From contig JAPOTR010000066.1 in NCBI GenBank assembly GCA_026709085.1, forward strand, positions 1-36,701: DNA of 36,701 bases, written 5' to 3'. Source of the DNA: Cyanobacteria bacterium MAG CAR3_bin_5 (GTDB lineage: Bacteria; Cyanobacteriota; Cyanobacteriia; PCC-6307; Cyanobiaceae). Every line of letters begins with the position of its first letter. The stretch's first letter is position 1. Made by a program: the position numbers and the translations under genes. The notes below the pieces were generated by a model, which made no database searches, was not told the DNA's origin, and saw nothing but the letters and a program-made list of their open reading frames with translations. This document shows, one piece after another, positions 1 through 23,086 of this stretch.

Positions 1-1280
1 CCCACTTGGGGATTGGCGCTGAAGCGCCCTTGCACCGCAGCCACCACCTGCTGGGCCACGGTGCGGCCAAAACGCACCTGCCAACCCGCTGTAGCACTGG
101 CATCCGTCTGTGACCTGGCCACCACCGCCACCCTGATCGCCGCCGTCAACCCCTCGTAGTCCCCACCACTGGCATTGATGGTGACAGTGGCGACGCCTGC
201 CTCCTGCCCCGAGGTGACCATCACCTCCTGCTCAGTGTTCCAGTTATCAGGGGTGAAGAGCAGGGTGTTTTGATTACCCGCCCGCAGCGGGTCCGTATCC
301 ACCATCAACCCACTGTCGTCAGACACCGCCACTGTCACTGTCACCGGGGCGGTGGGCACGGTATCCAGCTTGAGGGAGAAGCCGCCCTGCCCACCCCTGG
401 CCACTGCCAGGCTGACGGCAGAGAGCGCTAGCCCCGGCTCCACTGGCTCCACTGGCTCCACTGGCTCCACTGGCTCCACTGGCGTGGCGGTCACGGTGGC
501 CGATGCCGGCTGAGCCGTTGACCCCAGAAAGGCCCGCACCTGGAAGCTGTACTCCGTACCGTTGCTCAGGCCCGTCACCGTATAGCTCGTTGTGGTGGCA
601 GTGCTGGTGAAGCTGGACCAGCTTCCCCACGCCAGAGGCGAGCCCGTGCCCCGGCGGTACTGGTACTGGGTGATGTTGCTGTTACTCGGATCACTCCAAC
701 TCAGGACCACCTGCCCGTTTCCCGCCGTGGCAGTCAACCCCGTGATGTTCACCGATTCTTCTTCCACAAGAATTGTGTATTGGGAGTCTGATGGTATAGA
801 AGAACGAGTGTAACCAGTACCATCAACAAGCGTCAGGATAATGGTCTCACCACCGTCCGAGGCACTGTCTGCAAGGACACGTACAGTGAAAGCTTCCTGG
901 GCAAGACCCGATCTCCCCGCCGGGATGGTGAAGTTGCCGGTGTTCGCAGCGCAGTCGGCGTTGATGATGGTGTAGTCTGTCCCGCAGGTGGCTGTGCCGC
1001 TTATCGTATAGTCAACCACAACCTCATTACTGGTTGCTGGACTGATGTTTATAGGAACAACATGATCAGTGTTTTCTGTTATGTTGCGGGTAACTTGAGC
1101 AGAATAGAAGGCGACCAACGGCACAGTCTGTGCAGTGGCTTCACTTGTTAGAGTGAAGAGCAGCGGCAGGCTGAGGGCTGCCGCTGCAAAGCCTTGCCTT
1201 GCCTTGCCGCCTGCTGAGCCGCTGAGCCGCTGAGCCGCTGAGCCGCTGAGCCGCTGAGCCGCTGAGCCGATTATAGCCAC
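1..1280 (-). CDS. Secreted Calx-beta/Fn3 surface protein, N-terminal part (runs off the window)
   Basis: An open frame runs from a GTG at 1280 off the left edge (426 codons visible). Residues about 5-30 come from an 8-bp tandem repeat. A positively charged stretch and a hydrophobic core (AAAALSLPLLF) ending near SEATAQ then look like a Sec signal peptide. Residues about 60-170 resemble a Calx-beta domain (VDYTISGTATCGTDY, DGGETIILTL). Residues about 177-262 form an Fn3 domain (VVLSWSDP, YTVTGLSNGTEYSFQVRA). Five VEP tripeptides follow, then a second beta-rich domain with the phrase FTPDNWNTEQEVMVTSG. The last visible part (WQVRFGRTVAQQVV) is the type I associate with autotransporter-like surface proteins. 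No ATG is available in frame and the ribosome-binding site is weak; TTG at 1310 is the alternative start. The domain calls come from reading the translation, not from a profile search. Confidence 0.75.
   Translation of the reverse strand, partial: MAIIGSAAQRLSGSAAQRLSGSAGGKARQGFAAAALSLPLLFTLTSEATAQTVPLVAFYSAQVTRNITENTDHVVPINISPATSNEVVVDYTISGTATCGTDYTIINADCAANTGNFTIPAGRSGLAQEAFTVRVLADSASDGGETIILTLVDGTGYTRSSIPSDSQYTILVEEESVNITGLTATAGNGQVVLSWSDPSNSNITQYQYRRGTGSPLAWGSWSSFTSTATTTSYTVTGLSNGTEYSFQVRAFLGSTAQPASATVTATPVEPVEPVEPVEPVEPGLALSAVSLAVARGGQGGFSLKLDTVPTAPVTVTVAVSDDSGLMVDTDPLRAGNQNTLLFTPDNWNTEQEVMVTSGQEAGVATVTINASGGDYEGLTAAIRVAVVARSQTDASATAGWQVRFGRTVAQQVVAAVQGRFSANPQV
436..480 (-). repeat. 9-bp in-frame tandem repeat encoding (VEP)5
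   Basis: Five copies of GGCTCCACT (plus strand) encode a Val-Glu-Pro linker between the Fn3 domain and the next beta-rich domain of the surface protein. The unit is a multiple of three, so copy-number change would alter spacer length but not the frame. Confidence 0.9.
1191..1208 (-). repeat. Pentanucleotide repeat GCCTT, 3.6 copies
   Basis: Plus-strand GCCTT is repeated three times and followed by GCC, just upstream of the hydrophobic core of the signal peptide. The 5-bp unit is not a multiple of three, so slippage here would also shift the frame of the surface protein. Confidence 0.75.
1213..1268 (-). repeat. Octanucleotide tandem repeat, 7 perfect copies
   Basis: Seven perfect copies of GCTGAGCC (plus strand) start 10 bases inside the proposed GTG start of the surface protein. 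Three units encode the 8-residue repeat GSAAQRLS. Seven copies connect the GTG at 1280 in frame with the signal-peptide core and all downstream domains. Gain or loss of one unit changes length by 8 bp and breaks the frame, which is the usual arrangement of a slipped-strand phase-variation switch. Confidence 0.9.
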
Positions 1281-1654
1281 CCTGGCGCTAACGTGATCGC
1301 TTGTTGTCAATTTATGACGGGGTATTAGCGCCAGGGCTTCCCCCTTCCCCGGCAACCAGAGGCGGGCCGCTCTCATCCACCTGTGCGCCCCACCCGGAAC
1401 AGTGACCCCCTCCTGGTTGTTGTCCATGCTCAACTCTCCCTCACCCTTGAAAGGAAACCATCCTGCGGGGGGGGGGGGTACAATAGTACCTTTGTTCGGG
1501 ATCATGAGGGTGGCCGGCAGGCAGAGGGTGACACCATCTTATCTTAGCCAGGTCCGCAGCAGCCGGCAACAAGTAGCCGGGGAGCGCCCCCTTGATAAGG
1601 CTGGATGCCGTGCGGTGCGCTTTTTCGTTGCTGCGGGGTTCTCCCCACCCTGCT
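1281..1654. other. Intergenic region with a G12 tract
   Basis: I see no convincing gene between the surface protein and cbiD; frames here lack a start with a ribosome-binding site and resemble no family. The region lies upstream of the surface-protein gene and downstream of cbiD, both on the minus strand. It holds twelve Gs at 1467-1478 followed directly by TACAAT (1479-1484), which resembles a plus-strand -10 box, but no matching -35 lies at 16-18 bp. Confidence 0.5.
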
Positions 1655-23073: not shown

Positions 23074-23086
23074 GGGGGGGGGGGGG
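23074..23086. repeat. G13 homopolymer tract (C13 in the glycosyltransferase sense)
   Basis: Thirteen Gs on the plus strand lie just upstream of the conserved SIVVPCFNEE segment of the glycosyltransferase. With 13 bases no start codon is in frame. With 14 the GTG at 23089 would be in frame, and with 12 the TTG at 23091 would be. This is a contingency-locus-like arrangement, although homopolymers this long are also prone to assembly error. Confidence 0.85.

Follow-up and report, generated by a model that had tools for sequence, protein, structure and literature searches.

Host-adapted bacteria, most of them pathogens, are known to carry contingency families like that of the Opa proteins, and octamers are rare repeat units among simple sequence repeat (SSR) contingency loci. 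In Neisseria, the opa genes carry CTCTT repeats in the region encoding the leader peptide (PMC3960869), and in Haemophilus influenzae the hmw1A and hmw2A genes have repeats of 7, 8 or 9 bp in their promoter regions (PMC2651432). Control by frame shift and control at the promoter have both been discussed for SSR contingency loci (PMC2791445), and the heptamer repeats of cyanobacteria, e.g. GGGGA(C/T)T in Nostoc, are mostly intergenic (PMC4692102). Here we describe an octanucleotide array at the 5' end of a putative surface protein gene on the minus strand of a 36,701-nt contig of Cyanobacteria bacterium MAG CAR3_bin_5, analysed as a whole and hereafter called the window (G000:C27). The genome G000 is a 2.37-Mb draft in 67 contigs and, because one of its congeners is Ca. 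Synechococcus spongiarum SH4 (labelled G007), the organism carrying the window is very likely a relative of sponge symbionts.

Judged from the sequence, the window locus is probably a frame-shift contingency locus and a member of a multi-locus family. An earlier note on this DNA had proposed a phase-variable surface protein translated from a GTG close to the array, and that idea appears to have been largely right, as the array loci look like what one would expect of an Opa-like contingency family: arrays were found at one site throughout a gene family, in both frame states and in several congeneric species, while the proposed start codon is probably wrong and Calx-beta was matched weakly. The array itself is a perfect repeat at the 5' end of an open reading frame (ORF), with a unit that is not a multiple of three, and its relatives with open ORFs occur in both frame states (five in frame and eight out of frame). 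Tandem Repeats Finder (TRF) gave 7.1 copies with 100% matches, thus confirming the seven perfect 8-bp units of the earlier note as well as the 5-bp repeat beside them, and the chance expectation of such an array is ~1e-24 for a 36.7-kb window of equal composition. The unit is GCTGAGCC, in its coding-strand form GGCTCAGC, which translates as (GSAAQRLS)n. One minus-strand frame, open from an ATG at 1505 to the contig end, spans array, signal peptide and passenger, in agreement with the single frame claimed for seven copies; because each 8-bp unit added or removed shifts the codon phase, a change by one or two units breaks this frame and a change by three restores it. The elements of the locus and its neighbour are the following, with positions in the window.

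1541-1569, minus strand: putative promoter P1, with -35 TTGCCG (1564-1569), a 17-bp spacer and -10 TAAGAT (1541-1546)
1467-1478, minus strand: poly-C tract (C12) in the presumed 5' leader, a second simple repeat that is possibly variable
1434-1440, minus strand: Shine-Dalgarno-like GGGAGAG
1276-1427, minus strand: leader ORF, preferred start ATG 1425-1427, reading MDNNQEGVTVPGGAHRWMRAARLWLPGKGEALALIPRHKLTTSDHVSARV... and continuing into the array
1278-1280, minus strand: GTG proposed as start in the earlier note, 11 nt before the array
1270-1275, minus strand: TATAAT hexamer adjoining the array
1213-1269, minus strand: octanucleotide array, 57 bp, period 8
1131-1211, minus strand: signal peptide as read from the translation, with basic n-region GGKARQG and h-region FAAAALSLPLLF (1155-1190)
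1191-1208, minus strand: 5-bp repeat, GCCTT x3.6 by TRF (AAGGC on the coding strand), identical in paralogue C4L
3-1130, minus strand: secreted passenger with an Fn3 domain at 486-743, its 3' part lost at the contig start
1655-2986: cbiD, the gene neighbouring the array gene

The signal peptide sits immediately downstream of the array and is probably cleaved within SEATA/QTVP, between A and Q. In the passenger, the Fn3 domain suggested earlier was matched at 35.8 bits (cutoff 25), while the Calx-beta match stayed below threshold (13 bits, cutoff 27). From about position 90 downwards the conserved start of a C-terminal barrel-like domain, GWQVRFGRTVAQQVV..., is found, of which the first ~30 residues are present. 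Directly after the Fn3 domain, at 436-483, a 9-bp repeat (GGCTCCACT x5.3) encodes an in-frame (PVE)n linker, in which a length change would be frame-neutral.

Compared with the opa genes, the likeness lies in a 5' coding repeat found in many paralogous outer-membrane genes, in a unit that is not a multiple of three, in on/off control by frame shift and in mixed states within one genome. Here, however, the units are of 8 bp (7 bp in SH4) and locus-specific, they lie upstream of the hydrophobic core and follow a separate leader ORF, a poly-C tract and a TATAAT box are found at the locus, the protein family is unrelated, the organism is a cyanobacterium, and switching is proposed from sequence. 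The window has 8-bp units ahead of the h-region, and the 5-bp repeat nearby is AAGGC, not CTCTT. An Opa-type outer-membrane barrel was not found; the protein gave no match to the Opa family and instead has an Fn3 passenger followed by a separate C-terminal domain. With hmw1A and hmw2A the locus shares tandem arrays of 7-9 bp beside promoter elements of large adhesins, for which the unit differs between strains, but those arrays lie ~70-200 bp before the gene, in the promoter region, whereas here an adjoining box is combined with an open frame that runs through the array and is continuous with signal peptide and passenger in C27, C4L and SH4. What it shares with SSR contingency loci in general is that surface genes carry iterated units at their 5' ends and are found in both frame states. 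The Nostoc repeats are likewise short tandem repeats of variable unit number in cyanobacteria, but they represent one dispersed heptamer, as opposed to octamers of varied sequence at one position in one gene family, with none in a 400-kb background. In the part of the literature covered here, which does not settle priority, we found no report of an octamer-switch family in cyanobacteria, nor of phase-variable genes in sponge symbionts, Ca. S. spongiarum included.

That background consisted of 400 kb of G000, sampled as twenty interior stretches, and it contained no array of 6-12 bp units with three perfect copies. The array of the window belongs to a family of loci within the same genome. Through the 5' region, and then through a second leader type, about 16 loci of G000 were found that carry the poly-C element and a leader, most of them placed no more than a few hundred bases from a contig end, with the shared upstream element GAACAAAGRTACTAYTG..C9-14..GCAGG. 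At least 13 of these G000 loci have an array, two of which are degenerate. The common layout is a sigma70-like promoter, poly-C, a Shine-Dalgarno sequence, the leader ORF (~120-185 nt), a TATAAT-like hexamer, the array, a signal peptide and a variable passenger. The -35/-10 spacing is 16-17 bp in most loci with an intact tract, and the poly-C follows the -10 element by 55-65 bp, being C11-C14 where uninterrupted and interrupted in some copies. The repeat units differ by locus (GGCTCAGC, GCAGGAGC, TCAGAAGA, TCAGAAGG and variants), and the array of C17 is mixed. Several contigs stop inside arrays or within ~40 bp of them; the arrays would explain why short-read assemblies of these genomes break at such genes. 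The poly-C tract was rejected as an equally specific mark: the background held 11 C/G runs of at least 9 per 400 kb, which is about chance by our own estimate, and since such runs are common the tract proves little alone.

One paralogue of the window locus is C4L (G000:C4:182k), with an array at C4:182192-182247 that also has 7.1 units and shares a 24-mer with C27. A block of 156 nt (window 1119-1275), beginning with TATAAT and including the signal peptide, is 100% identical between the two and the leaders are 88.6% identical, whereas the passengers are unrelated. The shared 5' block has probably been copied recently, and the pattern suggests a 5' cassette with swapped passengers. In four congeners (G001, G003, G005 and G009) cbiD is followed by guaA, so that the array gene downstream of cbiD is an insertion in this lineage; for the same reason a comparison of the orthologous array site among congeners was ruled out.

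Arrays ahead of the signal peptide were present at the equivalent site of other genes in the congeners G003, G004, G007 (SH4) and G009. Unit length was 8 everywhere except in SH4 C25, where the sole heptamer is repeated 16.9 times. With one genome compared per species, the differences in array length are between paralogues only, e.g. 38 nt versus 62 nt in two G004 paralogues whose upstream flanks are 92.7% identical. At the assembled copy numbers five loci were in frame (ON), namely C27, C4L, SH4 C25, G003:C145 and G009:C51, the frame of G003:C145 extending over 2111 aa to reach the barrel domain. Eight further loci were out of frame (OFF) with an open passenger (C8, C4s, C16, C65, G003:C43, G004:C47, G004:C71 and G009:C19). 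Seven of these eight, all but G004:C71, are one unit below the in-frame number (offset +1), not all of them independently. In C63 and C64 the array is degenerate and the passenger broken, and these two look decayed. For two of the out-of-frame loci the state should indeed be OFF and is hard to explain otherwise: the passenger frame of G009:C19 contains no ATG, GTG or TTG, and in G003:C43 a stop lies directly ahead of the array, after which only a TTG precedes the signal peptide.

As for the start of translation, the GTG at 1278-1280 was rejected, this codon being GTA in C4L, and translation would probably begin at the ATG at 1427 instead. Upstream of the GTG the conserved candidate starts are this ATG, with its GGAG Shine-Dalgarno sequence, and an ATG at 1376; GGAG or a similar motif precedes nearly all of the paralogous leader ATGs. 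Starts located solely downstream of the array were also rejected, since no in-frame ATG, GTG or TTG occurs between array and passenger in C27 or C4L, in-frame starts of C65 occur upstream of the array only, and G009:C19 has none. An alignment of 12 leaders from G000 and SH4 showed no stop in the leader frame and 1-5 stops in each of the remaining two frames, and the same was seen in C27, C4L, two G003 leaders and G009:C19, with stops in the other frames. Leader lengths differ by multiples of three within the aligned leader types. We infer that the leader is translated. A conserved hairpin in the stretch that separates poly-C from the leader ATG was considered and discarded, as it was predicted in one leader type with almost no covariation.

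The nature of the encoded proteins was followed in the C8 member, which could be read to its end: a signal peptide and a passenger are followed by a C-terminal domain of 468 aa with F as its last residue. Matches to this domain numbered 68 in G000 and 80 in G003, with lower counts in other congeners; among 151 genomes of the family it was restricted to this genus and a second one (7 genomes). It gave no match to curated Pfam families (including Autotransporter), NCBIfam or the Protein Data Bank (PDB), and matched OMP_b-brl below threshold (E 0.0046), and we infer from its sequence that it may be an 'autotransporter barrel'. Members of the protein family without arrays also exist.

Under frame-shift switching, transcription would start from P1, ahead of the poly-C tract, and translation would run from the leader ATG at 1427 through leader and array into the signal peptide, the passenger and the barrel-like C-terminal domain. 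Slipped-strand mispairing would add or remove units and thereby bring the ribosome into the signal-peptide frame or take it out, each locus being ON at one copy number in three and otherwise OFF. A dozen or more loci switching independently would then generate mixed surface types inside the sponge, as the opa genes do in Neisseria. Slippage in vivo, switching of expression, display at the surface and a role in encounters with host, phage or grazers are all steps that this model presumes. If it is true, the photosymbiont of an animal-cyanobacterium symbiosis would randomise its surface through at least a dozen octamer-switched genes, perhaps thereby evading digestion, immune recognition or phage, and this would offer a genetic handle on sponge-symbiont recognition that is testable in existing metagenomes.

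Several observations weigh against frame-shift switching. All ON and OFF assignments derive from assembled consensus sequence. C27 and C4L have equal unit numbers, which says little on stability given that their block looks recently copied. A long N-terminal extension ahead of a signal peptide is unusual, and the dN/dS of the leaders is only weakly below 1 (0.3-0.96), so that the property preserved would mainly be openness, as expected of a runway into the array. Possible starts between array and signal peptide are found at four loci (ATG at +25 in C8, at +26 in C16 and at +26 in G003:C145, and GTG at +31 in SH4). At G005:C164:1-71 (L036) the octamer CCGGATGG is repeated 8.9 times directly after TATAAT, with the contig ending within the array; its unit contains ATG and thus provides starts in all three frames, and no leader runs open into it, which shows that the array theme is not uniform across loci. 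Finally, at 14 of 18 loci a TATAAT-like hexamer (5/6 or 6/6 matches) adjoins the array, as compared with 1.8% of control windows.

This hexamer is often of the extended -10 type (TGnTATAAT) and, because it occurs in two codon phases, DNA rather than peptide seems to be conserved at the array edge. It may be an extended -10 element from which transcripts start within the array, and the array would then be 5' untranslated region (UTR), as at the hmw promoters. In a combined arrangement the array would be situated at the transcript start of an internal promoter as well as inside a translated leader, together with the upstream poly-C, such that unit number would set transcription and frame alike and recombination in the 5' block would swap passengers; we regard such a dual switch as possible but doubtful. 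An unlikely explanation, in our view, is that the hexamer is a true -10 and transcripts begin in the first unit, making the array a length-variable 5' UTR that tunes expression like a rheostat, in the manner of the 7-bp repeats ahead of hmw1A and hmw2A, with the frame irrelevant. Besides the position of the hexamer, such tuning would agree with the AGGAG or GAAGG held by several units, which are potential ribosome-binding sites, and with the start codons 25-31 nt past the array in C8, C16 and SH4, but C27, C4L, C65 and G009:C19 offer no in-frame start there, and the open leader would be superfluous, yet is kept in all G000, G003, G009:C19 and SH4 leaders tested. The G004 arrays, moreover, have no adjoining hexamer, and a standard promoter of TTGACA...TATAAT ahead of the array was rejected, the spacing being at least 23 bp.

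The arrays could also be static or decaying relics of a duplicated signal-peptide cassette, coding without switching, with the out-of-frame copies as pseudogenes. The degenerate arrays and broken passengers of C63 and C64 would fit this, as would the weak constraint on the leader and the equal unit count of C27 and C4L, but most out-of-frame loci retain long open passengers, and the units are perfect and locus-specific yet of length 8 (7 once) at one site in several species, with no comparable arrays in the 400 kb of background, which together make this reading improbable. That the copy numbers, or the arrays themselves, were made by short-read assembly is highly improbable even for a 67-contig draft in which many contigs end at arrays, as the 57-bp array of the window is shorter than a typical read, its flanks are identical in two contigs and congeners assembled independently have similar arrays.

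A few further elements were noted outside the array loci. At L015 (G000:C67:17181) an ORF copy resembling the leader (MDNHQGVVTVPGGAQ), with neither array nor signal peptide, lies near repeated coiled-coil-like frames. Within the window, a family-2 glycosyltransferase gene (PF00535) carries a C13 tract at its 5' end (23074-23086, minus strand), and its frame has no ATG, GTG or TTG between the upstream stop and the point where the conserved part of the domain starts; the portion read of the G001 homologue had no long run of prolines (poly-C) immediately ahead of this domain. This C13 tract may be a second switch, of homopolymer type. Another candidate homopolymer switch is L030 (G000:C2:9200), where a similar motif flanks a long C tract upstream of an SLH/porin-looking gene.
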